DNA from: Fragilaria crotonensis
Taxonomy: Eukaryota > Bacillariophyta > Fragilariophyceae > Fragilariales > Fragilariaceae
Direction: 5' to 3'
DNA length: 62,696 nucleotides
Assembly: GCA_022925895.1 (NCBI GenBank)
Contig: JAKSYS010000351.1
Coordinates: 1 to 62,696 of the forward strand
In this document: piece after piece, positions 11,832 through 46,055 of the stretch
How the letters are laid out: each line of letters begins with the position of its first letter
Numbering within the stretch: position 1 is the first letter of the stretch
Notes under the pieces: model-generated
The model's database searches: none
What the model was told of the DNA's origin: nothing
The model's input: only the letters and a program-made list of their open reading frames with translations
Translations under genes and position numbers: made by a program

Positions 11832-12860
11832 TACATTCGAGCTCGCAGTGACCGTTCGCTGTATTTGCGTCCAGGAGAATGTGGTCGTCACCTGTTTTGT
11901 GACCTGCTGCCAGTGCTGGTCCTGCGGAAAAATCACTCTGGTTGCAATACTTGCCTATTGTGCATGAGTGCTGGTACTCTAACCGATAGCATGTTCCGTG
12001 CAGTCTTCTCAATTCAGCTGTGATTGCCCCGCAATACCGAGTATCCACGTTCCATCATTGAACTTTAACTCAAATCTGCGTCTTGCTGTGATGATGACGT
12101 CGAAGTAGCAATCTAATATCCAGAGTGGCGGCGAATGAAGCAATTTGATCAAAATATGTCTTGGGAATGTCGGTTGAATGAGAACTGATGCGAAGATCGG
12201 TCGTTTGAGAACTGAAGATTTAAGAACTGAATGTCCGTTGTGAGTTACTTGTAGTACTCCACAAGCAATTCGTCGGACCGCTCTCGTTTCTCGACACTCG
12301 ACAAAACATTTTGAGGGAGTTTACCAGGGTACTAGTAACATATATAGTGCAGTAGCATGTTCTTTCATTGAACTTCCCTTTCGATTCATCGTAATTTGAT
12401 TGAGTTGTTGAACTTCAAGTCAATAAGCCCCATATTTTCACTAGTACACGCGTCGCAGTACAAGTATGCAGCAACTCAAGTACCAGTTCAACCTACTCTA
12501 CTAGTAGAACTGATGAAAACAAACGACGATGATAACTTATTATGCATAGGCCTTCGAATGTTTCTACTTCCGAAATTGTAGTACTCCGAGTACTGTACCA
12601 GGTTCTCGATCACGGTCGTGGTTTCCGTCGAAGCAAATGATGTCTTCAAGGATACAACCTTACTTTTGCCTGATAGTAGTCGTAGAGGTCAGCGTAGTGT
12701 TTGCATACATCGGCGAACGACGACGGATGGCGCCATGAATGCAAGCTCCAAATCCGCTCGAAGTTCTCGTACCCGAGAATAGTCTACACTTTTTGAGGGC
12801 ACTGTCGGGCAGACATTAGCGGGGCTACAGCTTGCAAAGTATGCTTGCATCCACATCTGA
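11832..12860. other. Intergenic flank left of the large transposon
   Basis: No gene recognised. Bases about 12585-12600 contain gtactccgagtactgtac. The stretch up to 12860 is the host flank of the 11.6-kb element. Confidence 0.35.
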
Positions 12861-12888
12861 TCATCTAAGGGGGCACATCTGAGGTTTA
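12861..12888 (+). repeat. Left terminal inverted repeat of the 11.6-kb transposon
   Basis: Matches the reverse complement of 24427-24454 at 27 of 28 positions (core catctaagggggca and atctgaggttta). Outer boundary uncertain by one or two bases because flanking bases also partly match. Confidence 0.8.
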
Positions 12889-13372
12889 ATAATAGTTCTG
12901 ATAACATTTTCTCATATGCAGGCAAAACTATTGCTATTTATTTATGCTTTAGTACTGAATACTGGGTGTTTTGATGTTTTCGTTGTTTTTATGGGTTTTC
13001 GGAGTTTTGTGATTGACAGATGCCCTACCCGGATAATTACGTAAAAGTCAGCCGACTTCTGAAAACTTTGTTTTGGTGTACAGATATATGTAGCAAACCT
13101 TCATACAAAAATGCCACTTCATCATTTATGCTAGGTCGTATTTCTGTATCTCTTTTTCTGATAGCCTGCATTCTTTAACACGGAATTGTTTCTTTGCACA
13201 AGGGAAAAAGACGTTGTTATGCTCGTTTGACTGTGCCCTTTCTTCCTCCACAATTTGACGTCCATCCGTTGTTTATTTTGGTAAAAGAATCAAAGTTTTT
13301 TGTCTGCGCCTTATTACTCACAACTCACCAAGCAGCCAATCTAATCACAAACAACAAGCATATCCAATTATC
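12889..13372. other. Left subterminal region of the transposon
   Basis: AT-rich, T-rich on the plus strand, with no open frame of interest. It should hold the promoter of the transposase gene and transposase-binding sites. Confidence 0.4.
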
Positions 13373-16287
13373 GTGATGTCGGCTTCAAGATATGTGTGTC
13401 ACAATCCTGACTGTGGAAGTCGACGCCAATCCTTTTCCAATGAAAAAGGATACACGATGCATTTTGCACTTTCCCATCCTGTCTGTCGTTCATTGATCAA
13501 TCCTCTTCTGGTGGTGACACAAGACACCAACCAATTGCAGATGACGTGGTGTTTGTCTCCACCATACCTTCATCTCTGATGAGACGTGACGTGATAAACC
13601 CAACAATGCCAACATGCATAATACACAAACGTGGTCGGCATCGATGCTCGACGATGAGGCGACAAACACAACTGACGCGCCTTCTGATGATGACTTTGCC
13701 GCGAATGATGAAGGCTACGCATGGGAAGTAAATGCAACCCTGCCCCTTGTTGTTGATTCCAATGAAGAAGAGCCATGGCTGTACACTGATGATCAAAAGT
13801 GGACGGTTGCGTTGTTAAAATTATTGGACGATATGAATGCTCCAGACTACGCATTTGCTTCTGTGCTTAGATGGGCCAGAGGTGCCAATGCCGCAAGGTA
13901 TTCATTTTATCCTGATGGTGGTTTATCGCGTTCGCGAAGCATTGATCTGTTGTTTTCGGGTATGAAAAATGCAACGCAATTCTTGCCATCGGTTGTAAAC
14001 GTTACCACTCCTCATGGTCCTCCTCGTGATGTTATTGTGTTTGACTTTGTGCCTCAACTCTTGCGGTTGTTGCAGAACCCAAAACTGATGACAGCTGACA
14101 ACTTGTTAATTGACCCCGTTAATCCCTTGCTGCCATACGCATCACCACAAGGTGAACTTGGTGATGCCATCTCTGGTCAAGTGTATCGTGATGCATATAA
14201 ACGGATGATCACCAATCCTGATCGTCAATTCTTTGTGCCAATTATCCAATGGATTGACCGCACATCTGTCACAGGCAATGATCGCTTTTCTTTAAAAGCC
14301 ATACATGTTTACGCCAGCAATTTTTAAAGAACCCTTTCGTCGCAAAATTCAGGCCTGGGGTTATCATGGATTTTTGCCAAAACAAAAGACATCGTCGGCT
14401 CAAAACCAAACCCAAATTCAAGGAAACAATATTCGCAATTACCATGCGGAACTTTATGCTGTATTGCACTCCTTCACTACTTCGGAACCCCGCCTTCGCA
14501 ATGTTATACTTCCTCTTGGTCCCAGAGGTGCAATCTGCGTTGACGTCATTTGTTGCATACTCTTTGTGATACAAGACATGCAAGAAGGCGATGCACTCTG
14601 TGGTCGTTTTGGCTCACACACAACCGGGATACAACGCCATTGTCGTGCGTGCAACGTCACAGCAGCGGAATTGGATAATCCACATGCTACGTGTTCCTTT
14701 TTGTTGCTGCAGACATGGCACGCATCTCCAGCAACCCCGATCAAAAGTGCGTACGCCGTGGTCGCAACATTATCTTAATAATGCGTTTGATTACGTGCCC
14801 ATGGCTGATCCAGTGCGCGGCATTTTGGCGCTACTCCGGTGGAAACTCTCCATGCGTTTCGAAAAGGTTTAATTGAAAGGTCACATTTCTGGTTCTTAAA
14901 ATGTACCAACTCGCCGACGTGCTGCCTTGGACGCGTTGGCCGTTCATTTTCACAGATCGCACCGCCAAACATATCGCAAAGTGTATCCTGCAACCGATTT
15001 CAGCAACGGCATTACCAACCTAACAAAGATATCTGCTGCCGAGCGTGTGGGATTGGTATTCTTGTTCGTCATACTTGCCCAATATGATGAAGGGTGGATC
15101 ATTTTATCCAAAGCGCTGCAACAAAAAGATCGCACCAGTTTACGAAAGGTTATCAATGTGTTTGAAGCACTGTTGTGCTTTGACCAGTGGCTCAATCAAC
15201 CTACCTATTGGACAGCTGAACATCATGACGAATCCGTTTTACAAGTCTCAGATGCGATTACAAAACTGATGGAGATGTGCAAGAAGGATATTCCCTTGTT
15301 TAAAAAAAAGACATGGAAATTTCCAAAATTTCATGAATTGAAGCACATTCTTAACGACATGGAACGTTTCGGTGCCCCATAAATTATTGCGCACAACGCC
15401 CGGAGTCATTGTTGATTCCTGTGGCAAAACAGCCAGGTCGCAGAGCTCAAAAACGACATACAGGTGCTTTGTACGAATTGCAGGCAGCTCAACGTTTATC
15501 GTATTCGTTAATGATTGCTGAGGTTCATTCACGAATCTGGGGGGACGCCAACACGGCGGTAAGTGTCCCGTCTGTGGACGCAGCATCTATTTTTGAATCA
15601 ACTGGCAATGCAACATTTGGAGTTTTGTTTCGGAATACCAATATGATGTTAAACGTTCAGTGGGCAACCAAGACCGATGTGCGGTTGATGCATTTGCCAA
15701 CACCATTGATGGAATTTATGTGGACCACATTTGGCCCACACGTCCGTTTCTGTACCGAATATGTGCGTGACCAATATACGTTTCGTTGCCATCCTGCGTA
15801 TCAATCCGACAATCCGATTAACGATTGGATGAATGTCTTGTTCGAGGTGATGGATACCAAAACCAACACGTACATCAAAACGGCGTTTCCCTGCCGTCTG
15901 GCTGCTGTTGTGATCTGTGCCGTGGATGCTCTCAATGCAGAACCATATCATTTGGTAGTCCAAAGCACTACCGAACGGACCGGTGTTCAATCAGTGCTAT
16001 TGACGGAATGGTGTTGGTCCTCTGAATACCTTGTCATTCTACCATCCAATATTGTGGGCCCATGTTTTGTTATTTCGATTAAGCCCGACATGTCAAAAGT
16101 TCTAGAAGCCTTGCCATTGGACAGTTGGGCTTCCGAGTTCACGAAACCGGTTGATGAATATTCATCCTCTTCTGACGACGACGATGACGAGGAAATGCAT
16201 ACGGATAGTTCGGACGAAGAGAAATCAATTGACTTCGATGACAATGTTGAAGAAGAGGAGGAGGAGGAAGAAGATGGCGATTACTGA
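13373..16287 (+). CDS. Transposase of the 11.6-kb element (C2H2 plus CxxC/DDE RNase H-like), frame-disrupted
   Basis: Begins with a zinc-finger-like module (C-x4-C ... H-x4-H: CHNPDCGSRRQSF, then MHFALSHPVC), a likely DNA-binding domain. The core has a first acidic motif PIIQWIDRTSVTGNDRFSLK followed by PYMFTPAIF, a second VIQDMQEGDALCGRF, a CxxC insert IQRHCRACN, and a likely catalytic Glu in VETLHAFRKGLIE after FDYVPMADPVRGI. DITKIS-like block NGITNLTKISAAERVG and the C-terminal QPGRRAQKRH follow, ending in an acidic tail. The order agrees with the Plavaka/KDZ/CMC-like transposases. The conserved reading hops frame about six times, several times at runs one base too short (near 14292, 14823, 14876, 14898 and 15379), so this is either decayed or affected by run-length errors. 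Confidence 0.7.
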
Positions 16288-16424
16288 ATAATTATTTATA
16301 TAAATTTATCCTTACATTCTGATAAGGATATCGTCATGCATACTTTCCCCATTGTTTCCTTCAACTGATGGGTTTTGTAACGCTTGCTGCGTTATTCAAT
16401 GAAATCAAGGGCATGATGCATATT

Positions 16425-19400
16425 TTATGCAGGCAGCCTCATTTTGGAACGTCTCAATGGTCTCTTACCTTCATAAAAGAACCGGAAGCCAAGTTTGAAA
16501 GCAACAAATTTACTTTGCACCGTTTCGGAGGAAGTGCAATAATCCAATGCCTCATCGCACAGACGTAGAGCAATTGTCTCATTTGCATCATAGATAAAAT
16601 CCCCATGGATGGTAACTGCATGAGAACAACTGTCGTCAGAGGCTTGCAAGACGCCAAGCACAACCTCATCCTCTTTTAAATCAACTTTCCAATCGAATGA
16701 ACTTGGAAGTTTTTAATCACAATCCAAGTTGGAAGTAAAGTTCTTGCATGCTTAACCACCCTCCGCAATGCATCAACAACTGCGCCTTTCAAGATTTCCT
16801 CGCCGAATGCGTCAATCTTTGATGCATCATCGTGCCATCCCAATGCAAAGAAGGCCGATGCAAGAGACTTACTCACACACAAATCCTTTCCTTCAGATTG
16901 GACGAATTGAATTGCAGGTGCGCCAATCACCTTTAACTCAGGATGCTGGTTCAAGCGAGATTGCTTAAAATCACCAACGGGGATGTCAACCCAGCCTCGT
17001 TTAGATTGTTTCAATTCATCAGTGAAGCAATCGCCAAAGGTTTTGCGGACGTAATCTTCTTCCAGTGTTGGCGTTTTACCATCCGATGTCTTTCCAAGCC
17101 ATTTGCCTTCAACTGTAATTGTCTTTCGTGGAGGAGGGTCTTTCAAAGCCTTCAAATTCTTCAACTGAGAATCCCACCAGTCATCATCCTCATCTGTGGC
17201 ATCCAAACCTTTGAGGACATCCTTATTCAGAGAAGAACGCAGAGCCTCTGTTCTGATATAACCGCTTTCGCGGGTTTATCAGTAATGCCTTTCTCTGATC
17301 TTCCTTTGCGTTTTTCCTGAGAGGATTTGCGTCGTTCCATTTCAATTTCTTCAATTTCCTTCTCAATTCTTTTATCCAATTCAGCAGTGTCAACAATTCT
17401 GCGCTTTTTTTCTGGGCAATATCGAATTCGGATGATCTTTTTCTTACCAATAAAGACTTCCACATCTCGCGGAACCTGAGTCCAGTTGGATTCCTCCTGG
17501 CGCATATTTATGATTTGATCAAACATGGGTTGGAATTCAGATTTGACCCATTCTTCCTCCACATCGATTTCTTCTTCTTGCCGAATGTAATCATAATGCG
17601 ATGCTTTCTGTGGAGTCTTTTGCTTTTGGTTGTTGGTTTGAGGTGGAAAGACCGGAACCTCCTCTGTCCAAACCAATTTCGCTCGGAATGAATTCGTTGC
17701 TTTATCAAACCTCACACTCTGTACCAATGTTTTCTGAGTGCACTTAAATTCGTTGGCAAAGAATTTTCGGAATTTTGCTCGCTCGTCTTGCAAGGCTTTG
17801 ATCATCATGTCAATGTCACGAATGGTCTCCTTGGAAATACCATTAATATTTTTCTTCCTTGCCCAGCGATCAAGCTCAGCTTGATGCTGAGCCTTTGTAT
17901 GCCATTTCCAAGCCTTGAAGCTTTGCTCGATGTACTCTTCAATTTCCGCTTCATAGTCCGATCGTTTCATAATGGTCGGTGTAGGTAGTCCAGTAACTCC
18001 GTATTCTGTAGCAAGCTTCTCACACAGTGCCTTTGATTGCGTACAGAACTTTGGTGTTGGATCTGGGAAAGGAATAATAGCCTTTTCCAGTTTCTTTGCA
18101 TCGAGGGATCTTTGATTCGAATCTTCTTAAGAAACGCCTCCGCCATATCTTCAACTGCATCCGTTTTGCGCTTCAAAGGAACAACGAGCGGTTTTGGTTC
18201 GAATGTTTTCGTATCGGATGCCAAGGTTTGACTTTGTGTGATGTTTGCGCTTGCCTCTGTCTGCACGTCAGCATTTAATACAGCCCTTTCCATTGATGCA
18301 CCAGCTGCGCTTTCGGGAACATCCATATTCGCACTTCCTTTTTCTGGCGTTAGCAACAAAACATTGGCTCCTTCAATACGATTGTTGTCGTTTGTTGCCA
18401 CATGGTCAGATTGCGTCAAAACATTGGCTTCGTCGGAGTGATTAATGTTCACTCTTGCCGCTTCGTCGTTTGTTGGCTTTGATGCTTCGGTCTGCTCATG
18501 AATTGCAGATAACGCAGTCGAATCAGATTGGATTGTTGTTCCGTCTTGAGCCGTGCCTTTGGCAAAAGCTTTCGTTGTGTCTGAGCACGGACCTTTTTCG
18601 GCGATGGCGAAGGTGCTGCCTTTGCTTCCAACAAAATGTCTTGGTTTCCAACTGGCCATTGCGAGATTAGAGGCAAGTTGTTTGTGTAAACATCAGGGAC
18701 AAGATAATCAGCAAAAACTTTCTTGGGCTCAACATCGAATTGAAGCTTTGCCAAACGGTCGAATAAGACAAACCACTGCTCTCGCTCGGGAAGAAAAGAT
18801 TCCCTCTTGATTTTGGGCAGCGATACCCAAGGTGGTTGCAAATTCTTATATGGCATGTCGCAATACATTTCGTTCTTCAATGCACACTTTTTCAACTCCA
18901 ATGCTGTCGCCGAGAATTGGTCATCGAATGTAGCATCATCAACAATCAGATCACGCAGGACCATTGCTAAAGTTGCTATGACACCAAAGGCACAATTGTA
19001 AGTGTCATCGTTGGATTGCTTCGGAAGAATGTCGGAATTCAAAGGCAAATGAAGTGCAGGAAAAGTAGGTGTGCCAAGCATATTTCCATCCAATGCTTCA
19101 CCAAAAGGTGACAGCCACTCCAACTTGCCTTCTGATGGGTCCGAATGTTTTTTTTCGTGTGCATCGTAACTCGAACATAAATTCAAGAACCACAAGATGC
19201 CTTGGGAATTCGGAACATTGCGTCGGCCATTTGTGTCCATACTGCAGTATCGAAAAAAACACGCACGCAATCCATCTTTATTCCTTTTTTCGACTTCAGA
19301 CGTGTTGTACGCAGCGTTAAAGACAAAAGTGGCACTCCAATGGCTTTCATTTTTGTTGCATGGAAAGACAATCATCCGACAATCTAAGATCCACGGGTTT

Positions 19401-21342
19401 GGGTGAATCACATGCTGCACCAGGTGGTTTCTCAACTTGCAATAATCGCTTGCAAGTTGAGTCACAGGAGCTTTGAATCGGTCCAGGATGGCTTGCGCAA
19501 GCTTAACAGGATCAAGATCTTGTTCCTTGCCGAGTTTGACCATCTTTAAGGCACGCTGATATTCGACGAACTTAGCAAAAGCAATTGCGATCGAATCACA
19601 GTAACAGCATGGCATGACAAAACATAAATCTTGATACCGTCCATCGCACAAAAGAATCGCCATCATCAAGTCAAGCTCTCCACTTTGCATCCATTTCACT
19701 CCATGGGCTTCTGTATGCAACAGCCGACGCTCAATACGCACTTCTCCTTTAACAAACATGGTCGTCAGAGGAGGAACACTTGCATACGGAGGTGGAACAA
19801 TTGTCGCATAGTAGAGTCAGAATAGTGCAGACGTATTCCGCAAACTATGGGTGGTGGAAATTCACACCAAAGTTTCCAAGCATTGTTTGTGTCAGATGCG
19901 TCCTGTGAAACAGCTTGTGCTTCATCAGCAGGGGCAAGTTGGAAATGACGCAGGCATCCAGAACGCAAATGCATGAGTTGATAAACAACGGATTTGGGGT
20001 CATCCTTTTCATATGCATGGAAGATTGAAATTTTGAATTCCGCAGATTTGAATGCTGACAAATGATCCCTCACATGTCTCGGAAGCATTGAAAATCCATC
20101 ATCAAAATGATCGTTTATTTGCTTAAACCCAAGCATGGTGTAGAAATGAAACGCAGATGGTTTGCTCGTAGGATTGCAAAAAGATTTCCACTGTCTTGCA
20201 GGCAATGTCATTTGCATAACAATATTTGATCATTGCAATAATCAAAAATAATCCAAACCCTTGCCTGCGCCAGCCATTAATTTGCGTTGGGTGCGTTGCA
20301 TCATGCTTGGCAACAAGTAGCCAGGAAATGAATGCCGCAACATCATGTTTTCCTTTCGCGAAGGAAACGTTCGACTAAAGGTGACAGCTGCAACAACCTT
20401 CATTCCTTGATTTTTTTCTTCCCACATCGGTTTCCACGTATGGATGGGTCCTGCTTTCTTCTTCGTTACAATCATGATAGTAATCTGATTTTCCAATGCT
20501 ACCCGAATTGACGATGTTGTTGTTGACTTTGGAGCAAAGCCACTGACATAAAACTTAAGTGCCAACTCCTTGAACTTGGCAATGCGTGGCTGCAAATGTT
20601 TGTTTTTCACCAGTTTCCAATCGGGAGCAGATGGGTTTATGACAACAAGGCGAAAATACCAAGTGTGATCACCATCGCCGGGTTTGTCAATAAGCGATGC
20701 AAATCGGAGATCTTTGTACCAATGCCGGCAGCGGTAAAGATCAATCTCTCCATATCCGCCAGTTTTTGGTTGCAAATCAAATGCAGATCTCACTGCATGC
20801 CTGGCATTGCGAGCGTCGTTATCCTTCATCAGAAATTCGTCTACACCAGTGAATCCATAAACGGATTTGAGTTGATGGGGAATAATAAAAGCAACCTCGT
20901 CGTCTCGAGAGGCAAGGACATCGATATCTGGCGGAACAAGAATGGTCGCATCAACGTCAATGGGATCGTTCAACGTTGTTGGCTTTAATGGTGCTCTGGT
21001 GGATTTTGTTGCTTTGGAATCAGTAGCATCGACGTCATGAATTGTTGGTTGGTTTTCAACCCCAGAGGAAAGCATTGCGTGATCCGCCTGGTGTGTTTCA
21101 AGATTTGTGAGTGAGTCGGTCACGTTTGTTACAGGATCAAGTTTCTCAATAGCAAGAAACATGCTTTCCATTTTCGCCATCCCTATCTGGGATTTTGGGA
21201 TTTTGCTATCTGCACTTTCGTCTTTGTCCATGTCATGCGTTACATCAGTGGTGGCAATGGTCTGAATTAATGCCTCTGAGGGATCTTCATTATCCTCTGT
21301 ATTGCTGTTGCCTTCTTTGGCGGTTTCACGAGCAGCTTCCAT
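16425..21342 (-). CDS. Giant transposon polyprotein: GNAT-like, Ulp1 (C48) protease, coiled coil, papain-like peptidase; frame-disrupted
   Basis: Reads from the ATG at 21342 as about 1,640 residues once one-base frame changes are allowed. Order: acidic Ser/Thr-rich leader; a domain with GYGEIDLYRCRHWYKDLRF; a GNAT-like acetyltransferase fold (VVAAVTFSR, the CoA-loop-like AGAGKGLDYF near 20240, then NPTSKPSAFHFYTMLGF); a Ulp1-like protease with catalytic His in ESHWSATFVF, Asp in YCSMDTNG and Gln/Cys in PKQSNDDTYNCAFGV (about 18900-19700); a disordered linker; a charged coiled-coil stretch (EIEEYIEQSFKAWKWHTKAQ); and a C-terminal papain-like module with CVSKSLASAFFALGW, SCSHAVTIHG and YDANE as Cys-His-Asn candidates. 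Breaks near 20240, 20185, 19780, 18590, 18110, 17235 and 16705 include several A or T runs. Ulp1 cargo is known in such elements; the full combination is not one I recognise. Confidence 0.65.
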
Positions 21343-22665
21343 GGCTCGGTTGATGATGATGCTGTGATAATCTCCAGCCAATGATCTTTGATGAAAACAG
21401 AAACCTCGAATGAATCTTGGTGACTGTTTTGTGTCAAGAAATACACGTAACCACAAGCACACGCTGCTTTGCTAGTGAATCACGACGTGGAGTCAGCAAT
21501 ACTCAATCAAGAGCAAGATTCTCGCAGGTGACTAGCCCCCACAGCTAATGTGCAATTGGTGTATGAATCCTTGCTTCAAAAATACTGGTGGGATCGTTAC
21601 AGCTGCCAGCAACAAAGAAAATGAAACAATATCAACAAAATGGTTCGTTGATCCTGCAGGAGAGAGCAAACAAGAAAGTCAGGTGAGAGCACATAGCAGT
21701 TGTTACACCAGGGTGGCGAGTCGTGTCGTTACTGCTTTGCCGTATGTGGGCTACGTAATGTGTATGTAACAGTAGTCCTACACCGTATGACAGTACAACA
21801 ATACAAAATTTTGCCGCACCACTGCACTGGTCACGTAGGAATGGTATGGCTGTACTAGTGTACAGTGCTTTACGACACTGTACATAAATACAGTGCAGTG
21901 CTGACAGCAAACGATCTTCATTCAACACATGTCACTTCTTTTGCAAAAACACAATGGTTTGACCTCTGATGCAAACAAAATCGCCACATGACATCTGTCT
22001 GATGGCAATGCTTACAATGGGTGCTCGTTTTTTTTAAAGGAGCAAAGTTTGAGAAAGGAATGATGAAGGAAGTGATGAGAGTGAATGGGGACAACAACAG
22101 TTCACTTTGTGCAAATCTCACGAGTTGAAAAAAATCGGGGAAACGTAATGTTGGAATAACGGCTTTTCAGAATATGGGTCGCGAATGTGCCTACGCACAC
22201 GGTAGTACGGGTACTGAAAATTCGTGCACTGTATCAAGTACTCCAATGCATAGCACTGCAGGTACAAGTACTGTATCCACTATTATGCATACAACTCCTA
22301 ATACAAACTATACATGCTACTAGTAATACATATTTTGTTGCATTGCAGTGTAAACATATATCATACACTTTTGCTTTTCTACTTCTAGTCTAGTAATAAT
22401 AATGTGTGTCCCGTACGCACTCGGAGAGTTGATAATGTGCTCTACTTAAATCATCAATGATACGATCTTACCCAAACTTGATTAAGTATAATTCATTTGA
22501 ATTAACTATTATTTTCAAAACAACTTTCGCGCATATTAATGCAACAAATATTTCATTCGAATGCATGTCATTTCCTTCCATCATGTCATAATCCTTAGTT
22601 GTTGCAACAATGAGCAAAAATAAAAACTTAACTTTCAAGGCCTTGGCCTTGACATTGACGACGAC
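21343..22665. promoter_or_regulatory. Divergent promoter region inside the transposon
   Basis: Lies between the start of the leftward polyprotein and the rightward third gene, so both promoters should be here. It contains GTAC motifs (22200-22280: ggtagtacgggtact, tcaagtactcc) resembling the host intergenic spacers. No other gene is convincing. Confidence 0.35.
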
Positions 22666-24050
22666 TTGAATCGCATTACTAAATGTGATCATAAGGCCAA
22701 CGCGACTAACATGCGTGCTCCGTCAAGACAGTATCATGCATTGCCTGCCAATGATCAAATACAAGCTTTGGTCGAACCGGATACGATGCATTTGGTGCTG
22801 CCAAGTGCATGTATTTCAAACATGGAACTTCACCATGAAACCACCGACATGACCGGTAAAATGACGCCAGAAGGCAGGCGCATTTTGGTACGTAACTGCG
22901 TTAAAACGTATTGTTCCGGCGTCTCAAGTTTTTTAAAAAGGACTTACATGGGATGTACGATCAACGCGCTACTTCTGTTTGTGGCCTTGTGATAAAGAGT
23001 TGCAACCTCCCATAAAGACGCAACATTAGAATGGTGGGCTACAATGCGTAAGGTTGTCATTGCAACGCATACGGATCATCGCAATAATGTCATTAAAACA
23101 ATGCGATTGCGTTTCCGAGGTGCGTGTTGGTAACAGTATAAGCCACCGTGTCGTTTGTAAAACTTACATTATATGGCAGATGGCGTTAATGGTCGCATCC
23201 CAAACTTTAAACGCAATAGTGGCAGCGATGACGACATTCAGACATTATTGGCAATGCGCTCCAACATTGTTAATTATGTTCATATAATCGACATCAATGC
23301 GCCTTGTGTTGTCAAATCAAGCATTTGGAACCGCGACACTATCATGACACAGTACTGTGGTGACAACGCTGCCAATTTTCAGGAATACATTTTGTCGATT
23401 AGTGACGAAGCGTTTTTACTGCTTGTTTTAATCAATTACAGTGCTACGTGGATGGCGGAAATTGAAGAAGAACATCGCAAGGTACGTTAAATTCTGAATG
23501 TATGTGTGTTATGATTTCCGTATTACGCAAAGACTCACGACAGTTGCCTCGTAAACAAAGATATACACTAATCAACAGGGACACAGTTTGGACACGGCAC
23601 CCCCGTGCGCTTGTGGTACGTTTGTAATTATCAGTGTGGAAATCACCAATGCGGTGTTAATAAGATTGCCACTAACAACTGAGTTTTGATTGGTCTTAGG
23701 CGCCGAAGTACACGTTCTCGAGAAAAACAAAACGTTGCAGTGTAGCACGCAAGCCGGTTGCCGAAACATCCGGTATTGGATGGTCGGAGGCTGGTTTGGA
23801 AAGGTACAATGAATTGTATGATTTGGTGGTTGAAGACCGTGTTTCACGCGGAGGCGTTTTCAACAATGAGTTGTTGAATGTTTTTGTGGAACGCCGACGT
23901 GATCGAAAGAGTGCCAAGCAAGTGTGTGAACCAGACGCCAAAAAGCGCAGAATTGTCCCCAAGGATGACATGGGACTCTACGATACATTGTTTGAAAATG
24001 TGATTGCTACGAATGTGTCACGTGAGTTGCACCCAAGTATGCAGCTTTAA
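22666..24050 (+). CDS. Third gene of the 11.6-kb transposon, multi-exon, unknown function
   Basis: Coding pieces are separated by short introns with unusual, repeated donors: gtacgtaact (after 22887), gtgcgtgttg (near 23120), gtacgttaaa (after 23482) and gtacgtttgt (after 23623). Acceptors such as caacag (23578) and gtcttag (23700) fit. The pieces read through MHLVLPSACISNMELHHE, DLHGMYDQRATSVCGLVIK, EWWATMRKVVIATHTDHRNN, TLLAMRSNIVNYVHIIDINA, EYILSISDEAFLLLVLINY and finally GWSEAGLERYNELYDLVVED with a basic DAKKRRIVPK segment. That last helical block I associate with diatom repeat proteins, but no function is known to me. Exact exon limits are approximate; one frame change near 22998 is likely. 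Confidence 0.5.
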
Positions 24051-24426
24051 TATCATACACTGTGAATGAAATATAATGATTAATTAGTTTGATTATTTAT
24101 ATCGTTACAAAAAACTTCAGATACCTTATTACAACATTCAATTACATGAAGTAAATTACCATGGATAAAGACATACATGACATCAGATTTCTTTATACCA
24201 GTGTCAGATAAGATGACATGTTACATGTCACCATCGAATGTCTTTCGAAACGGATTCCTTAATAATTTTAATCCGAAATCAGAATGTTGAACTTCCGAAA
24301 TCAGAATAAAAATGACAGAATACGAACTCCGACCTCGTTCATCGAACAATATGTCGGTCTGTTTTTTAACGGATGTATCTGTTTTTATCTTCTTATATCC
24401 CAAATGCAAAAACTCCGATATAGGGT
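24051..24426. other. Right subterminal region of the transposon
   Basis: AT-rich, no gene. Holds a direct repeat of tccgaaatcagaat at 24272-24285 and 24294-24307, a possible transposase-binding repeat. Confidence 0.45.
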
Positions 24427-24454
24427 TAAACCTCAGATTTGCCCCCTTAGATGA
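24427..24454 (-). repeat. Right terminal inverted repeat of the 11.6-kb transposon
   Basis: Inverted partner of 12861-12888 (27/28 identical). Beyond it, host sequence resumes towards the patatin gene. Confidence 0.8.
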
Positions 24455-24912
24455 TTGATAGTGCGGTAACCCCAATAACCCACGGCGGGAGTACGTGCAT
24501 TGGGGACAACTTTGCCTTCTTACTTAAAACCTTGCACGTGTGAGTGAAGCTTGATTTGACGGATGGCTGGTCAATGTACCCTTTACTGCATCGGTGTAGA
24601 CGAGACTGGTTGGAGGCGGGCAGCGGGGGACGCTGCAGGAACATCATGACTGGTGGTAGTTAACCATTTTCTTGGCTGGTGCCCGGAGTATGCTGTGTAC
24701 TCGGAGGACGCGTACTTCGCATCGAAATGACTATCCAGTTGCTGATAATATCTTGGAGGCCCGATGTCAGTGATAGAGAAGAATAGCCGATTCTCCTCGA
24801 GGAACATGGAGATGGCGGCAAAAGGAAGTTCTGGTCTAAACATAGTGCACAAAAAGACAGCAACCACTCCAAGATTCTGTGGAGCTAGGGTCTGTTGGGT
24901 CAAGACCAGTTT
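24455..24912. other. Intergenic between transposon and patatin 3' end
   Basis: A leftward open frame (24583-24903) follows the patatin stop directly but shows no family features; it may be patatin 3' UTR or a cryptic extension through a gtatag...caacag intron. Confidence 0.3.
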
Positions 24913-26001
24913 CTATACCTTGGGAATGCAATCAAATTCACCGCACTCGTCCATTTCCTTGGCGTACGATTTACCCCTCTCCAACAGGTGAAAGATTCTG
25001 TCTGGAGATGCAGTTTTGATGAAGTCGAAAATGGAAAGGTTCGCCATGGAAGGATCCCTGTGAAAACTAGGCATGATGATGTGATCCTTCGAAGCGACAC
25101 CGAAGTCACTCAGCTTGCTCAGAAAGCTGCCATCGATGTGTGGTGAATTCCGAAAGCTAGCTGTTAGTTTCCCGTCAAGGAACCAGGGCTGTATTTCACG
25201 CAATTCATCAGCGGGAGTTGGATTCCATCAGGGCATAAGGATATCTCGTGCTTACGAGGTGTACACTTGCCATGTTACAATCAATGAGGTCGTGTTTACT
25301 TTGAAAACTGTCAACTCGTTTCTTCTTCATGCCTGGGATTTCAGTGACGAGCAGGCATAACTGAATGGTGGATGCAGTGTGTGGCATAAGCAACAAGGAA
25401 TCGGAGCACATTGCAAACCGATGCAACAAACGTACTTTTCCATTAACTGTCTTGACAACATCATCTGGGAGCAATGTGTGAAGCCAGTGTTCAATCAGAG
25501 GTCCCCAAATCCCCTGAAGGCCATTGGCTCGATCCCAAACACCGGCTTCTGCAGCCAAACGAAGAGCCAGCTCAGTGGCGTCGTAGAAATCAACTTTCGC
25601 TGCAGTTAGTGTGGCAGTCAATGCGCCGGCCGAGGCACCCCCCACTCGAACTCCATTCAAATTGTAGCCCTGCTCGCGTAAATAAGTCACCACACCAGCC
25701 TGCCAGTAGAAGAACAGCCTACAAGCGCACATAAATTTGTGAATAAGAGGTATGGAACTTCTGTGTATTCAAGGAAAGGTACGTACCCTCCGCCAGGAAA
25801 GAGAAGGTAGGGGGACTTTGAGTTCGGCGAATCGTCGGTCGTCAAGTCTCGACGAACAGAGAACTCTGCATGTGCACCATTCGATGGTCTAACGACATGT
25901 CGATGCAGCGTAAGCGAAGGTGTACTCGCAAATGCATCAACACCATCTTGAAGTACAAGAACATACAACAGAAGCAGCAATGCTTGAAGTACCGAAGACA
26001 T
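24913..26001 (-). CDS. Patatin-like phospholipase, putatively plastid-targeted, three exons
   Basis: Patatin-family serine acyl hydrolase acting on lipids. Exon 1 starts at the ATG at 26001: a hydrophobic signal peptide ends at a VDAFAS motif like the diatom plastid ASAFAP cleavage site, and the domain begins with LLFPGGG, the oxyanion-hole glycines. A 68-nt intron (25719-25786) splits the third Gly codon. Exon 2 has WQAGVVTYLREQGYNLNG and the nucleophile elbow VGGASAGALTAT (GxSxG). A 67-nt intron (25189-25255) leads to exon 3 with PWFLDGKLTASFRNSPHIDG, whose Asp-Gly supplies the second dyad residue. Both introns restore frame exactly. It lies head-on to the large transposon, 458 bp from its right end. 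Plastid targeting is an inference. Confidence 0.85.
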
Positions 26002-27204: not shown

Positions 27205-27490
27205 AGTGGTTGTTTTGCCCAAATTTATAGGCTAACACCCTAACGCTTCTTCAAGCCAACTCCTTCCCAAGGACTACCAGAGCTTTACCAAAGCTCCCAC
27301 CGATCTCCGATCTAACGAAGTACTCGACAGTACTCGTCGCTCTTCGCTGCAGCTCAGTCAACACCGTTCGACTGTCCACCCAGTCTCCGACTACTCCACT
27401 ACCGTCGATCTAGCGAAGTACGTTCCCCAACGTCAACACTCCGTGTTCATTGCTCCCAGCACCCTAAGACACGCTCCGCGTTAATCCAAG

Positions 27491-29383
27491 ATGGCGTCTC
27501 CAACTCCTACTGGTGACCCCGTCACCACCACGTCCCCAACACCTGTCAGTGACCCCGTCACCTCCAACAGACCCGTAAAGCCCATCATGGGCAACGTCGT
27601 CTCGCTCTCCAAGGACGACTCGTCCGCCTGGACCGGAGGGAAGCCGCTCGCCGGTTGGATCGGTCTCGATCCAAGCGCCAGCGACGAACATACTTCCCCG
27701 AATCAACTCCGACCCGTCCACGCTGGTGCTTCGCAAAAAGGTTACAACTACCGCCGCACTGGCCTGCCTTGGGATCATCTCACCGACTGCGGGATGGATA
27801 GCATCGCTTACCTCCCTGACCCCGAAAACGAACTGCTGACGACGAACGTCGTCAAAAGCCACTCTCGTTATACGATCCAAACCGCCAAGACTCTTAGCGC
27901 CAAACAACTCATGCTGTACGACAAGAGTAATGACCGCGCCGCCGTCAAGTTTGTGCTCTCGTCGCTTGTGCCTGCTCTCATGAGCAAAATCAAGGAGAAG
28001 ACCGAGGACTCCGATTCGTTCCACATTGTTTGGTTGCAACTCTTCAAGACCATTCAATCAACGTCCATCGAATGTTTTGAAGACTTGAAGGCTGCGATTA
28101 AGGCTCGCCATCCAACGCAGTACACCGGAGAGAATCTTGAGCTTCTCGCATCTGATTTCCGCAAGGACGCTCGTGAGTTGACAACAGCTGGTCAATACGA
28201 CCACAACTTGACACTTACGATGTTGAAGACATTCCTGCTTGCCGGTGGATCAGGCAACGAAGACTTCCGCTTTTGCTATGTGCAACGAAACAGAAGCTCG
28301 ACCAGGCTCTGCTTGATATCGGGTACAAGGAGAAGTCAGCAGCGCAAGCACACATGGTGAGCGAAAAATTGACTTACCAAGATGTTTGTCGACAAGCTGA
28401 AGACGCATATCGCCTCCAGTACGACAGGAAGGAATGGCCACCAGCCAGTCATGCCACCTTTTGGGAATGTTGCTCTGCCAGAAGGTTCTGCAATCACGCG
28501 AGCTGAAGTTCTAAATCTGATCCAATCTCAGACGCCTAGCCAGGACACGCCAAAGAAGGGCAATTGTCACAACTGTGGCAAACCAGGTCATTGGTCCAAC
28601 AAGTGTCCGGAAAAGAATAAAAACGGTCGCAAGAATGTCTCTGGAAACGGGACTCCAAACAACGCAACTGGAGCCCACAAAACTCAATCTTGGCGCACGA
28701 TACCTCCACCTCCTGGAACTGCGACGTCCAAAAAGGTCAAGGACAAGGCATTCAATTGGTGTGAGAAATACAGTCGTTGGACAACGACGCACACGACCGC
28801 TACCGACACAGGACAACGTCGCAACGACGCATCTGCTCCCGCGCCATCAGCTCAAGCTAATCTCTCAGCGTTTTCCATCGCTGACCCTTCGGGGTGGATG
28901 TTTGACTTCGACGACCATGCGAGAAGACTTCAGTCTACGACAAGGAAATCAATCTACGCGTTCTTATTCTCAAAAACAACGATTCTATTGGTTTATTCAG
29001 TGATGTTCTGTCTCGTCGTGCCAAAGTTCGCAAACTTGGCAACCCAAGTGCTACGATCAACTCCATGGATGTCGCTCTCGACGTGGGTCGCCGACTCACT
29101 TTGTCAAGTGCTCCGCGAGCAACCAACGTTGCTCCTTGCCCCTGCTCTTTGGCTCGCACTCCTGGCTGCCCCCTTTTGGAAGCCAGAAGCTTGCCAACAA
29201 GAAACGAACACAACCACAAGCACTTCGTTCACTCGCAAGCAACGCAGACGTTTCGCGAAGCTCTTGAAGACGTCACTCGCCAAGCCCCAACACGAAATGC
29301 GACGCCGCAAGGCTGTGGCTCCTCTTCCCTATCGCCTTCGCAAACGACGTCATCAAAACGCATCCAACGCACCGTCCCTTTGA
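27491..29383 (+). pseudogene. Copia gag, frame-disrupted
   Basis: Capsid-like protein starting MASPTPTGDPVTTT after a 286-bp leader. The nucleocapsid zinc knuckle CHNCGKPGHWSNKC (C-x2-C-x4-H-x4-C) lies at 28565-28607. The reading crosses three frames (changes near 28265 and 28440-28465), so no full gag can be made from the sequence as given. Further downstream (about 28940-29383) the frame is open but uncharacteristic and probably shifted again before protease. Confidence 0.7.
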
Positions 29384-29428
29384 ATGCAGACAAGCCTTTG
29401 AGACCTCGACGAACTGAAGACACGAACG

Positions 29429-32400
29429 TTGTTACTCCAGCGTCAGACGCAACGCCTTCGCACGCCTCGCTCTCCATATGCAACGAATGCGCTCAACAAG
29501 GGAGGAACTGGAACTTTGGATCGCCGCACGCACACTCAACGTAAGAAGCCAGCACGCCGACCGAAATACCATCCTGTTCCCGCCGACGGAGCCCCTGATG
29601 CGTTTGTCCCTGCACCATGGACGACACAGCAACACAACACTGCCCACAAGATCATCTCCCACGTCAACCTCGCTTGCACTGCCACGCTCCGAATGGCATT
29701 GCAAGCGCCAGCACGCATGCGAAACGCTCTCGGAAGTGCGACGAACAGTGCTCCCATCATATGGGACTCTGGCGCGAGCATCTCCAGTTCGCCCGATCCT
29801 GAAGACTTTCAAGGCACGATGCGAAGCCCCGGCACTATCACCCAACTAAAGGGAATAGCCCGCGGACTTCAAATCAAGGGTCAAGGCGAAGTTACTTGGG
29901 CAGTTCACGACACGAACGGCAACCTGCGAATGATCAAGGTTCCCGCTTTCTACGTACCCGGCATCAAAGTTTGTCTCCTCTCGACCACGAGTCTCTTGCA
30001 AACCTATCAAGGCGAGACGATTAAAGTCGAATCGAATCGACTCACCTTGAGCGGCGTTCCTGGCGACTCAAGTCGAGGAGCGGTAATGGTGCTCGTGAAT
30101 CCGAAGAACAACCTGCCAACGTCCGACGCCTTCAATGGTCAGGATCCTTTCAAGGCCGCTGACGCACTCGTCGCAATGATCACCGAGGTTCACGAGACGA
30201 ATCACAACGTCAGCGAAGCCGAAAAGGAACTCATGCGATGGCATTATCGCCTCGGACACATTGGATTCAAGAAGATCCAGTTCTTGTTAAGAACCGGAGT
30301 CTTGAGTCAAACAGAAGCAAGTCGCCGACTCCATTCTGCAGCCTGCAAGCTGATGAACCTTACAAAGTGTGCAGCCTGCCAGTATGGCAAGCAGCATCGA
30401 CGTCCTATCCCTGGTTCGACGCCGTCAACTATCATCCGCGACCGAACGAACATCCTCAAGGCCGACAACGTTATTCCCGGACATCGAGTTTCCATCAACC
30501 ACTTCATTTGCAGCACGCGAGGACGGCTTCTCACTTCCGCCGGCAAGACCAAAAATGACGAGATGTACACGGGAGGATGTATCTTTGTGGACCACGCCTC
30601 CGGTTTCGTTCACGTCGAGCTTCAAGTAAATCTCAACACGCACGAGACTCTCAAAGCAAAGGAGAAGTTTAAACTTACCTGTCGTCAATACGGAGTCGTG
30701 CCGCAGGAATACCTGGCGGATAACTCCAAGATTTTCACCTCCGCCGAGTTCACCAAGAACCTGTCGACGTTTGCTCAAATCATGAGGTTTGCAGGCATTG
30801 GTGCCCATCACCACAATGGCATTGCCGAGAGGAACATTCGAACAATCATGGCGATCGCGCGCACGATGATGCTTCATGCAGCAATTCATTGGCCATCGAT
30901 CGCGGACGCAACGCTTTGGCCGTTGGCCGTCAACCATGCAGTCTTTCTGGTCAACCACGTCCCCGATCCGAGAACTGGTTTATGTCCCTCTGACCTGTTT
31001 ACCAAAACGAGATGGGAACAACGCAAGCTCAACAATCTCCACGTTTGGGGATGCCCTGTCTTTGTGTTCGACAAGATGATCTCCGATGGCAAGAAGCTGC
31101 CTTGCTGGACTCCGCGGTCAACTCGAACGATCAACATGGGCTTCTCGGCGAAGCATGCCATCACGGTTCCAATCGTTCTCAACCCCCAAACTGGTTATAC
31201 TACGCCGCAATTCCACGTCGTCTTCGACGATTGGTTTGCGACTGCTCCTGCCTCCGTCGACGACCTTCCGAACTTTAACGCCGACAGTTGGAAGCGAGCG
31301 AATGTTTCGCGACTCGACCTACCAATACATTCTTGACGACGAGGACCAAGAGCGGTTGATTGTTGAGACCGAGAATTTTGAGAAGGAACAAGATGTACTC
31401 TCGCAACAACAACGCATCGCGACCGCCATCGACGACGCAACTCCACCGTCAGCGCTACCCGTCGAACCTCCTCCGACAAGAACCCCTGTCAACGCAACAC
31501 AACGACAGCTCCCACCAGTCAACGAGACGACGACGCAACCTCCGGTTCCCTCGACACCATTGTTGATTCCAAGGGAGAGTCCACCTCCATCAACTCCAAC
31601 GGTGTCGTCTCCGCCTCATTTGATTCAGGATCCTCAGCCCCAGACACCGACGCAACTGTTCCAGTCTCCACTTCGTCCTGCACCTCATGACATCCCACCA
31701 TCTCCTGCTTCAAACGAAACGAACGATGAGACTGAAACTGTCATGAAGCAGGTACCTGACAAACAGCAAAGGCACTCACCTCGTCGCTCCACTCGCACTC
31801 GCAAAGCTCCCGATCGTCTCGGATACGACGGCCAACAAGGGAGAGGTTACTTGTTTACAATGGATGACATCATCTTCGATTGGCTCCTCACCGAAGCCAT
31901 TGAAGACAGCAGCGCCATGTCACAAGCAAACAAGGCAAGCGTGAGCGACCCCGACACTTTGAGCTTCGAAGAAGCCATGTCGGACGTCGAGAACATCCAA
32001 AACTGGATGAGAGCTGCAGAAGCCGAAATCAAGTCGTTGGAGAAAAATGGGACTTGGAAAGAAGTGCCAACTGCTGATGCGAAGTCACGAATCCTGCCAG
32101 GTACTTGGGTCTTTCGGCGTAAACGCACGCCTGACGGTGCCATAAGCAAGTACAAGGCATGCTACTGTGTACGAGGCGACTTGCAGGAAACTGAGCAAGA
32201 AACGTTTGCCCCAGTCGTGGCTTGGAGTACGGTACGGTTGTTTCTGGTACTGTCACTTACATTGGCTTGGCAAACTTGCACTATCAATTTCAGCAGTGCA
32301 TTTGTACAGGCCCCACTCACTGATCCAGTATGGATTCACTTGCCTTGAGGCTTTCATTCCGAATGTGGGTCTTCTACGTGCCTGCAACTCTTGAAAAGTC

Positions 32401-33519
32401 TCTACGGTTTGAGTGTCGCACCGCGACTCTGGTATGAACATCTGTCCGATGCACTACGCGATGAAGGGTTCAAGAGCTGTGCAAATGACCCTTGCCTTCT
32501 TTGCAAGGATACTATTATGGTTGTCATCTACGTTGACGATTTGGGCATCGCTTTTTCAACTCAACGCGACTTCTTTGACGAATTATTTGCAAATCTTGAT
32601 GCCAAAGGTTTCAGCTTCACGAAGGAAGGAACCTTCACTGACTTCTTGGGAATCAACTTCGTGAAGGATCCCAAGAATGGCACTCTGACGCTCACACAGA
32701 AAGGCCCAATTCAGAAGATTCAAGAGGCGACAGGCATGAAGATGAGCAACAGCAATTGGACTCCCGCTGGACAAGCCGCTTTGGGAATCGACCCCGACGG
32801 TCCTCCGATGCGAGAGTCTTGGAGCTATCGCTCCGTGGTTGGGATGCTCCTCTACCTTTCGACGAATACTCGCCCAGATATCGCGTTTGCAGTCAGCCAG
32901 GTTGCACGATTCTCGCACAATCCGAAGAAGAGTCACGCTTCCGCAATCAAGACAATTGTTCGTTACCTCCAGAGGACGTACGATAAGGGTATGATCGTCA
33001 AGCCAACCGGCGAACTGCTATGTGGACGCTGACTTCGCAGGATTGCATCGTCGCGACCCGGACTCCTCGCCAAGCTCCGCAAAGTCGAGGACAGGATACA
33101 TCATAACTCTCGGAGGGTGCCCAATCCTTTGGAAATTGCATCTTCAATCCGAAATATCTTTGTCGACGCTCGAGGCTGAGTACTCCGCCCTCAGCTCTGC
33201 CATGCGAACGCTCCTTCCTTTGCGCGCCATGCTCCTTGAACTCATTGACGGCTTGCAACTTCCTGATACTCTTACATCTACCGTTTAGTGTCGTGTGTTC
33301 GAAGACAACAACGGCGCACTTCTTTTGGCGACCAACCAACAAATTACCAATCGGACGAAGTACTTCCAAGTCAAATGGCATTTCTTTTGGTCTCACGTTC
33401 GCGACGGCACCATCGCAATCATCAAGGTTGATACTCAGGAACAATGGGCCGACATGCTCACCAAAGGCCTGAATCGCGAAAGCTTCGAACGAGTTCGCCG
33501 ACTTGTTCAAGGATGGTGA
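29429..33519 (+). pseudogene. Copia pol: protease, integrase, reverse transcriptase, RNase H, with nonsense and frame changes
   Basis: Protease active site WDSGAS lies near 29762. The integrase zinc motif WHYRLGH...CAACQYGK (30237-30380) is followed by catalytic residues in IFVDHASGF, YLADNSKIF and NGIAERNIR. The frame changes near 31290-31310. Reverse transcriptase has SRILPGTWVFRRK, motif A INFSSAFVQA (Asn where the family has Asp, codon 32286-32288), an in-frame TGA at 32346-32348, then SLYGLSVAPRLWYEHL and the YVDD box (32529-32540). The frame shifts again near 33010. RNase H reads YVDADFAG, STLEAEYSAL, a TAG at 33286-33288, FEDNNGALLL and ADMLTK. Protein expression from this copy is not expected. 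Confidence 0.88.
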
Positions 33520-42430: not shown

Positions 42431-45400
42431 TCAAAATCGAGGGCACAATGATGTGTTTTGAAGCGTTTGACAAGGTTCTCCGTCTTGTTGATGGGATCTG
42501 TTGTGAGCGCACTTTTGTTTGTTCTGGCACTTTCTCTCCCCTGTCGTTCGCACCAAATCATGTACTCGTCTTGAAAAAAGTCTGATTCGCTCCGTCACTA
42601 ACACCCCGCCCTTCTCCCTCGACAGACACTCTCTGACAACGGATTCAAAGTTGTCTTTGCCTCGCTTCTGTTTCAAGGACACACGGCGGTAACTGTTTTT
42701 GGCACACCCCCAGGACTACTTGATTCCCTCTCCTGCAAGCTCGCAGTGGCATTTGGGTGTCCGATCAACAAGAACACCCATCTCCCTTCCCATTGACTGA
42801 AGAAGTGTCTCCTCCTCCTTGAAATCAAAGCAGCTGGCCATCAAAGACTTCAAGGCAAAGGTTTTGTCATCAACACCGTATCCATTTTGCCTTCCATTGA
42901 TCGTGAACTCTGAAAGTCTTGTTTCATCGACAATTCCGCGTTCCCAAAGAACCTGCTGTAGGAGGCCTTTTGGTTTTCCCTCCCACCCCTCAACAACTAT
43001 CTGTGATGTCTCCCGAATTGGTAAGCCATGCTCTTGTGCAATGGCTTGTATTGCTACTTTCTTGCCTTTGGCACTGCAGACTCGTTCCTTCTTCAGTACT
43101 TTAAGCAGCTCGTCCTTCGTGAACTCTCGCGTTTTTTCCTCCTCAAGAATTCGATCATGGCGAGTTTCTTCCCGTTGCACCTCTGTCATCCAAAAAGGAC
43201 CGGCTTCCAATGGACTGAACACCATTGATTGCGTGTCTCCAATTTGCAGTTTTGGTGAGTGTGGACCGAGATATCCTTGACTTTGCTTTATCGTTGTCTC
43301 GCGCATTTTTCTCTGCGCTTGTCCTCCGAAGATTCTCGCTATCTTCTCCACATTCAACCCGTCCTCTCGTTGTCGATCGTGACCACAGGAGTGGTCGAAT
43401 AAGAATAGGAAGTCGTACTGTGGATACTTGACATTGAGGATGTCCACGCAATCCTCAAGCTGCAGCACCATGTGCTGATACGTCCAGTAGCCGTCAGCAT
43501 TTTGTCCGTACTTGAATTCCCGAATGAAAGGAGAAGTCGTAAGTGGTTCCTTGTATTCCGTTTTTCTTGTGTCACAATACTTAACCCCTTGTCGACATCT
43601 GCTGTTCACTTCTGATAGGTCTGACTCCGTCGTATCAAGACCAAAACCAAATTCCCTGGATTGAAAAGCCGAAATCATTATCCCAAGACCATCATCCTTT
43701 GGACGAATGAAAGTTTCTCTGTTGGGGCCATACCATTGTTTGGACGGCATCAGAAACTGTTTGAATATGCATTCGTCATGCCCGAAGATTATTAATGGCT
43801 TCAACGATGAATCGAAGCGGACGGAGAGGTTACCACCAAAGTCAGTTGTCACTAGTTGCTGTAAGAGGGCCTTACTCTTTTCGGGTTCAAAGCTGTCGAC
43901 ATGGTATTCTCTCATTCGATCCCCGCTGCTGTTAAGGTAAGAGTAGCCGCTTCCTTTCGGTAGCATTTCATCTGTCTCAAGTTGTGCCGCCACAGGTTCT
44001 GTTACTTGCACGCAGCAATGCATCCTTCTTTCGTATGATAAGTAGCGTTGACAAAAATCCCATCTATATTGTACCGTGGCAGGTCGTTCGTGACCATCGA
44101 CATAATATCCTTTGCGAGTTGGCTCATAGCGGAAGCCAAGGCGGACCATCCAACGGTAGACAGTTGAGGAACTTATGCAGGTAAGACCGTATTGCTTGAG
44201 GATAATCCTCAATTGCTTGTTGTATTGCTCTTTGTTGTTTGCCATCATCACTCTCACACTTTTCTCGGTCGAATCAAAAGGTCCATCACTAGGATTGGTA
44301 AGACTTTGTCGTGGATAAAGTCACTCAGCATTTTGATGCTGAGTGTGTCGAGGTTTCCCCTTGCATATTTTTATATTCGTACAGATGTCTGGATTTTGAT
44401 GGAGAAATGGCGGAAGGTTCTTCTTTGCTGGTTGCGGAATGACGAAGGTACGAGTCTCGCGGAAGCTACGGTACCACTTGGATACGGTCTCATGGCGAGT
44501 GGCAAGTGTCAATCCTTGCCTTTGTAATTCACCAATCGTTTTCTCACAACATTTTTGCCACGTCCACCCGTTCATGTTCTCCCTTGCCAGGTGGAGTGCA
44601 AGGGCGAGATATTGTGCTTTTTGTTGTATAACCCATTTTTGATGTTCCGTGACGTCGTCTTCGTTTAGCTCGTCAAGATTTCCGGCGACGGTGAGGAAAG
44701 CATTTGAACTTTTGTTGACGTCGCGAAGGGCTTTGATCTGGTTATCAATGGCATCAAGAGCAGTTGACTCTGAGGCGAGCGGTCGGAAAAGTAATTTGGC
44801 TTCGGGAGAGTCCCAATACGTTTCGAGAAAAGGACGACACGGAGATGCCAGCGATGAAGCAGTGTCTTCGCTACTTCCTATCATTGTGGCGACCTCATTT
44901 GTCATACATTCTGAGGCTTCTTCTCCTCCTTGTTCTTCAGATGGCGATGAAGTGGCGTCATCACTTGAGGATGATGATGGCGCCATGGAGCTTGCCCCCC
45001 TCCCCATTCAACAATCTTCCGTGTTGGTTGCAAAGTCGTCGTGTCCTCTTTGCTGCTATGCTGCTGGTGCTGAAAGTGCTAGGAGGACTAGTACTACAAC
45101 AAGGAGAGGATGGCGATAGTTGTCGTTTTCTACTATCGTGCTGGTGAGGATTGCTGACTAGTTCTATGTCGACAAGTTCAGACCGTTGTCGGGTTGCGGG
45201 AGGGAGCAGCCGATTGACAGCAATTGCTGCTTCCCAAGCTGATGTATTGCCTGCCGTAGGAAGAGCTGGCGCCGCTCCAGTCTTAGTTATGTAAAAGTAG
45301 TAGGACGTCTTTGTCTCGCCTTGTCGTCGTTGATGCTGGATGTACATGTCTAGCTTTGTTCCGTTGTAAACCTCGATGTAGTTAGCATTATATGAGCTGT

Positions 45401-45611
45401 TTTGGTATGCCTTGTTTATGCATCTCATCATGGCAACCAGGGTAAATTGAAGTCCATTGGAGCAGTACCGTTGATGTATGTATTCATGCAAAACGATGGC
45501 ATTCAACCATTTCTTGTGGAGCGAGGTTTCGCTGATGGCTGCATGAAAGGAAGTGAGAATAAAATGACTCATTCCTCGCCTCTCGATGTACTTAGGCAAT
45601 ATCTCGCTCAT
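42431..45611 (-). pseudogene. DDE-superfamily (Tc1/IS630-like) transposase, inactivated
   Basis: About 1,050 residues of a transposase type that is common in diatoms. The N-terminal third (45611-~44990) includes SYYFYITKTG. A second part has YWDSPEAKLLF, LNEDDVTEHQKWVIQQKAQY and a helix-turn-helix-like WQKCCEKTIGELQRQGLTLA. The third has TCISSSTVYRWMVRLGF, GYYVDGHERP, the first Asp in IIFGHDECIF, KDDGLGIMISAF, the second Asp in FLFLFDHSCGH, and HCELAGEGIK. At the last site the family has IEYSWG; here Glu is Lys (42719-42721) followed by TAG (42716-42718), then SWGCAKNSYRR continues to 42431. Frame changes lie near 45000 (G run), 44360 (A run) and 44290. No terminal repeats were found. Confidence 0.8.
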
Positions 45612-46055
45612 ACTGTTGATTGATGAGCTATAACCGGTCGAGGTACGTCGAGCTGCATCAATCCTGTGGAGATATGGACGATCATCGTCGGACCATCAAG
45701 GCACGAGAAAGTGCGCCATTTTTTGATCTCATACATGAATTAAAAGATAAGGTTGAGGTTTTGATGACGTTTTGTACCAGATCTACGTATTTTGGCCCGC
45801 GCACAGCCATCGGGCTGATCCTGATGACAACTTCGGATTTCCTACTATGTCATAGCGTAGACTTCAGTAGATGGAAAGGAGCCGGTTTGAACGAACAGGA
45901 CTCGATCGTACATCTATGGCTCTGTATACATCTCGGTGTCGTCTTTACGGAGACGAAACCGTTTTTGTATTTATGCTTTAACGTACCATAACAGCCTTTA
46001 TGTAAGTAAAATACTTCAAGATTTTTAACCGCTTTTCTCGTCGACCAGCCACGTC
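45612..46055. other. Intergenic between two transposase loci
   Basis: Contains a rightward 123-codon frame (45620-45991) with no recognisable features. It may include the left end of the next element. Confidence 0.3.

Follow-up and report, generated by a model that had tools for sequence, protein, structure and literature searches.

The stretch of DNA considered here (the window, 62,696 bp) is contig JAKSYS010000351.1 of the freshwater diatom Fragilaria crotonensis, whose genome assembly comprises 62.1 Mb in 881 contigs; within it, the window is designated C282. Toward its left side, an inverted repeat encloses a three-gene segment, and this locus raises the questions of what kind of mobile element it is, where exactly it ends, and what its two genes other than the transposase contribute. 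The element is very probably a Plavaka-type cut-and-paste DNA transposon, with genes 2 and 3 as partners of the transposase (gene 1). This assignment rests on the ends (CATCTAA..TTAGATG), a 2-bp target-site duplication, several near-identical copies, empty sites (of relatives and of sister copies), and the invariant D, D, and E residues of the transposase.

Terminal repeats, target site, and limits

An earlier note, made from the sequence of the window alone, had described a complete transposon with terminal inverted repeats (TIRs) at 12861-24454, enclosed by a 28-bp repeat matching at 27 of 28 positions. The repeat was present as described, exclusive of the target-site duplication; with the duplication included, it comprised 30 nt that were 97% complementary (arms 12860-12889 and 24426-24455). 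The TIR element itself was real, but its exact ends lay one base inside each of those limits (Table 1). A search of the genome with the terminal-repeat pattern yielded 16 matches, compared to 0 for a reversed control pattern; the inverted repeat is therefore not a chance occurrence. At all 16 ends, which belonged to ten copies, CATCTAAGG was read. Second copies with the same ends were thereby found, as expected of a complete, multi-copy transposon in this diatom.

Six pairs of ends faced each other: those of the window, C449, C686, and C728 (ca. 11.6 kb), C214 (12.4 kb), and C869 (7.3 kb). C252, C522, C78, and C476 had one end each. A 2-bp duplication flanked four of the six pairs (AT in the window; TG, TT, and TC, in element orientation, in the others) as well as three diverged relatives, C5 (TT) and C131 and C147 (both TA). 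The total read from the flanks was seven of nine insertions, within the 2-3 bp of Plavaka elements. In C131 and C147, only CATCTAA was common to the two ends; the right end of C147 was missed by the exact pattern and was located by alignment with C131.

For the empty-site search, the two flanks of each of eight insertions (C214, C449, C686, C728, C869, C5, C131, and C147) were joined and compared to the genome. Uninterrupted sites were found for six of these (C449, C728, C147, C5, C869, and C131), with 82-97% identity for those taken; none was found in the genome for C214 or C686. The flanks overlapped by exactly 2 bp in seven of nine empty-site sequences (five insertions), and in three of these seven, one base of the dinucleotide differed from that of the filled site. 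An element starting at CTAAGG, with the CAT/ATG part belonging to the target, was considered initially and was ruled out by the empty sites.

Table 1. Features of the element in window coordinates.
Feature	Position	Strand	Remarks
Complete element	12862-24453		11,592 bp; ends common to other copies and also defined by the empty sites of further insertions
Target-site duplication AT, left	12860-12861
Target-site duplication AT, right	24454-24455
Left TIR	12862-12889	+	28 bp, starts CATCTAAGGGGGCA
Right TIR	24426-24453	-	28 bp, 27/28 compared to left TIR
Gene 1, Plavaka-type DDE transposase	13377-16287	+	972 residues in C728 copy; frame broken in window copy
Gene 2	16428-21342	-	ca. 1,644 residues; GNAT-like, SENP/Ulp1-like, and C-terminal Cys/His/Asp domains (predicted); frame broken in window copy
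Gene 3, exon 1 (inferred)	22614-23119	+	Frame broken in window copy
Gene 3, exon 2 (inferred)	23180-23481	+
Gene 3, last exon (inferred)	23700-24050	+

Transposase and family membership

The unbroken gene 1 frame of the C728 copy matched PF18759 (Plavaka) in Pfam with an E-value of 5.5e-9 and 36.1 bits (cut-off 26.3) over residues 259-502; the broken frame of the window copy alone scored 16.7, under the cut-off. Plavaka was the sole family among the Pfam matches of the C728 transposase up to E 1, and no KDZ family was among them. A total of 112 relatives were found, many carrying precomputed PF18759 annotations. In 92 aligned sequences (>800 residues, query included), D295, D401, E679, H655, H659, and C426 were invariant. 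The motifs of Plavaka transposases, namely D, D, and E plus a C(2)C and an H(3-4)H located between the second D and the E, were present, and the earlier description of a CMC-like DDE transposase with C..C and H..H motifs holds in this respect. Of the 92 sequences, 73% retained the first Cys of the C(2)C motif, and just 54-57% the N-terminal C2H2 cysteines. In the genome search, 47 of 628 transposase candidates were scored; at least 70 matches were obtained, forming at least 42 loci once merged. Among viral contigs, 34 pattern matches to transposase relatives were obtained and 0 were confirmed.

Kojima 2025 (PMC12730594) gives 2- or 3-bp duplications and CATCA..TGATG ends for PlavakaB, CAC..GTG ends and 3-bp duplications for EnSpm, CA..TG ends for CMC elements, and 8-bp duplications for Zisupton. 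Like fungal PlavakaB, the diatom element has a Plavaka-profile DDE transposase with H..H and C..C between the second D and E, ends that begin with CATC and finish with GATG, and a 2-bp duplication. It differs in its host, in its termini (CATCT..AGATG), and in carrying two additional conserved genes; a TET/JBP gene was not recognised in it. With CACTA/EnSpm, it shares CA..TG ends, a DDE transposase bearing C..C and H..H motifs, and the presence of accessory proteins, but it has neither CAC..GTG ends, nor a 3-bp duplication, nor an EnSpm Pfam match.

Gene 2

Three gene units lie inside the ends, as had been proposed: the transposase (+), gene 2 (-), and gene 3 (+). A Pfam scan of ten internal open reading frames (ORFs) gave no host genes, in agreement with the earlier note. 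Gene 2 had been called a giant polyprotein; it is read instead as one multidomain protein that, in its predicted structure, resembles a fusion of an acetyltransferase and a SUMO protease. An unbroken frame was available as metagenome protein P0113. In the model, a SENP/Ulp1 (C48) fold was found, supporting the Ulp1-type protease noted earlier, along with a GNAT fold bearing the R/Q-x-x-G-x-G/A motif. The closest folds were those of the SENP7/SENP2 and GCN5/Naa families (identity 11-14% in the rows cited); in gene 2, however, the two folds are fused. The nearest GNAT matches included the histone acetyltransferase GCN5 and also protein N-terminal acetyltransferases, so the fold does not settle the substrate. 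The catalytic residues of C48 peptidases are His, Asp, Gln, and Cys; His-Trp, Gln, and Cys were invariant in a seven-sequence alignment of the putative protease.

A structure predicted from the single sequence without an alignment was discarded (mean predicted local-distance difference test score (pLDDT) 34.1). Sequence searches of the PDB returned either nothing or low-scoring GNAT rows (E 0.12 at best) together with one weak row for protease La. Pox_A6 Pfam matches were under the cut-off and were set aside. A programmed frameshift was ruled out, as the break near 17.2-17.5 kb is missing from C214 and C686.

Gene 3, gene company, and selection

The spliced third gene of the earlier note was borne out insofar as three exons fit GT..AG and frame, although the frame is broken in the window copy and the putative introns (23120-23179 and 23482-23699) were read from GT..AG and frame alone. 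Exon 1 had 38 relatives; exons 1 and 2 had no Pfam match. Gene-3-like loci numbered 102 after merging, and were far commoner than scored transposase loci (42).

Genes 2 and 3 had been regarded as extra cargo. The layout of the window element was found unchanged in C147, C131, and C5, whose transposases are 53-59% identical to the query. Gene 2 gave 52 matches in the genome, merged to 20 loci; at 19 of the 20, a transposase lay no more than 5 kb away in convergent orientation (the pairing drew on 50 of the 70 transposase matches), and at the remaining locus, C874, no scored transposase was present. Of the 42 transposase loci, 34 had gene 3 no farther than 13 kb away. Relative to the transposase, 26 of the gene-3-like loci were downstream on the same strand, 8 were head-to-head upstream at 0.6-1.3 kb, and 1 was upstream on the same strand. 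The ratio of nonsynonymous to synonymous substitution rates (dN/dS) was calculated for 17 comparisons, 3 of which were saturated; it was at most 0.34 in 11 of the 14 usable ones. Values of 0.18 and 0.13 were obtained for the transposase, 0.31, 0.34, 0.13, 0.10, 0.17 (dS 2.1), 0.14, and 0.21 for gene 3, and 0.23 and 0.12 in two comparisons of gene 2. Judged from these sequences, both gene 2 and gene 3 accompany the transposase as conserved partners in diverged relatives and are mostly under purifying selection; the cargo description was dropped.

A second arrangement, with gene 3 head-to-head with the transposase, was observed at C80, C361, C548, C156, C642, C427, C233, and C647. C80, the locus of this kind that was examined, carries gene 2 too; no CATCTAA-like end was found within its 9 kb.

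Copies in the genome

Gaps uncounted, the five long copies were ca. 98-100% alike across the greater part of gene 1 and in the 3' half of gene 2. The window copy was 95% alike over the first 500 bp and had a stretch of its own, at about 90%, at 21.4-22.4 kb. The left part of C449 was 98-100% identical to the other long copies; its right part, beyond 22.4 kb, was 82-92% identical to the other four (94% in the last 86 bp) and 92-95% identical to C869. By these identities, C449 looks like a mosaic, i.e. a recombinant of two subfamilies, one represented by the other long copies (left) and one C869-like (right). C869 is an internally deleted derivative, with ca. 4.5 kb missing and both ends kept.

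Compared to the majority of the five copies, the window copy had 10, 8, and 5 frame-shifting indels (insertions or deletions) in genes 1, 2, and 3, respectively; the genes described in the earlier note are recognisable, but all are broken in this copy. Each long copy carried some such indels. Those of the window copy may represent decay or assembly error; because most of the indels involve a single base and fall in short runs, the two are not separable from these copies.

Proposed mechanism and alternatives

The DDE family of the transposase implies cut-and-paste movement: the enzyme would bind the element ends, excise the element, and join it to the target with a 2-bp stagger. For gene 2, a chromatin-opening role is suggested by its predicted folds and by its constant company with the transposase. 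Tentatively, its product would act on element-associated proteins, be they histones, host silencing factors, or the transposase, removing SUMO from them and acetylating them, and silencing would thereby be relieved. The diatom Plavaka elements might then have, as a core gene, a chromatin-opening enzyme of their own. It would combine a histone-acetyltransferase-like GNAT domain with a SUMO-chain protease and a further cysteine-protease-like domain and would reverse host silencing at the element; we regard this as possible, not probable. Gene 3 may be an accessory subunit, perhaps DNA-binding, by analogy with TnpA of CACTA.

It is also conceivable, if doubtful, that gene 2 modifies or processes the transposase or gene 3 itself, not chromatin, and sets the dose or timing of transposition. 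Its convergence with the transposase at nearly all scored loci is what would be expected of such a dedicated partner, and the range of proteins acted on by SENP and GNAT folds is wide; the mixed GNAT matches, however, leave the choice of substrate undecided. It is improbable that genes 2 and 3 were captured from the host and ride along as passengers that contribute nothing to movement. Large transposons often capture accessory genes, and 67 of the 102 gene-3-like loci had no scored transposase within 13 kb, but the gene set and order are kept in the diverged relatives, gene 2 also occurs in the second arrangement, and most dN/dS values are low. Somewhat unlikely, too, is the view that the window copy is a dead remnant with real indels, of a family that no longer moves. 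All three of its genes are shifted in frame and no long copy is free of such indels; yet the copies are nearly identical over gene 1 apart from gaps, the indels resemble long-read errors, and the C728 transposase is unbroken. Least credible of all is membership in KDZ or CACTA/EnSpm. KDZ elements with Ulp1 genes likewise carry a SUMO-protease-like gene, and the CA..TG ends recall CMC elements. The KDZ-like affinity put forward in the earlier note was nevertheless abandoned, and CACTA membership was likewise disfavoured, given the Pfam profile, the CATC ends, and a duplication length of neither 3 nor 8 bp. The KDZ transposase is also unlike that of the diatom element, whose gene 2 combines the protease fold with a GNAT fold and a third domain in a single protein.

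Several observations weigh against a Plavaka-type element with genes 2 and 3 as partners. As read from the flanks, the duplication is missing at C214 and C869; at both C869 empty sites, the overlap was 5, which by eye comprises a CA duplication and two extra bases at the left junction. In the genome, empty sites, which the earlier note had proposed to look for, were located for other insertions but not for the window copy. Confidence in the gene 2 model is middling (mean pLDDT 64.4), and in Pfam, no model matched gene 2 above the cut-off (GNAT models weakly, peptidase models not at all). The position expected for the catalytic Asp was Cys in all seven aligned sequences, making protease activity uncertain. 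Three gene 2 comparisons gave dN/dS values of 0.52, 0.45, and 0.58, perhaps due to broken frames having been read through. Finally, the earlier note named as a refuting result the three genes lying separately, at syntenic host positions in related diatoms; within this genome, gene 2 was nearly always beside a transposase, but the 67 gene-3-like loci had no scored one nearby. As 47 of 628 transposase candidates were scored, these loci may reflect a limit of the search, with diverged partners overlooked, or a gene 3 that occurs elsewhere as well.

Relation to published elements

Plavaka has been named in a green alga (PMC12633428) and in Amoebidium (PMC11244446); a range beyond fungi is therefore already known. 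Searches of an open-licence library, in which most papers were judged by title, did not turn up the three-gene form in a diatom; by its title, PMC7017206 treats diatom transposons but does not describe this element. The words protease, peptidase, SUMO, and acetyltransferase are absent from the main text of PMC12730594. To Plavaka, which the sources cited describe mostly in fungi, the present element and its relatives add a varied group from a diatom, for which the exact ends and the target rule are given. A transposon that encodes SUMO-protease-like and acetyltransferase-like functions in an enzyme of its own would be a testable case, bearing on the escape of mobile DNA from silencing. In F. 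crotonensis, expression of transposon-class genes has been reported to rise at high pH (PMC9732472).

Neighbourhood of the element

Just right of the element, at 25211-25768, is a weak patatin-like ORF (E 8.1e-5, under the cut-off). Pieces of a Ty1/copia-like retrotransposon occupy 27485-33032, with a zinc-knuckle ORF, gag_pre-integrs (29402-31333), and RVT_2 (32349-33029). Large ORFs are present at 42716-50672; that at 42719-44320 (-) had a weak HTH_33 match under the cut-off, and that at 46029-47537 is taken as a member of a repeated family because the flank of the C728 insertion resembles its protein by eye.
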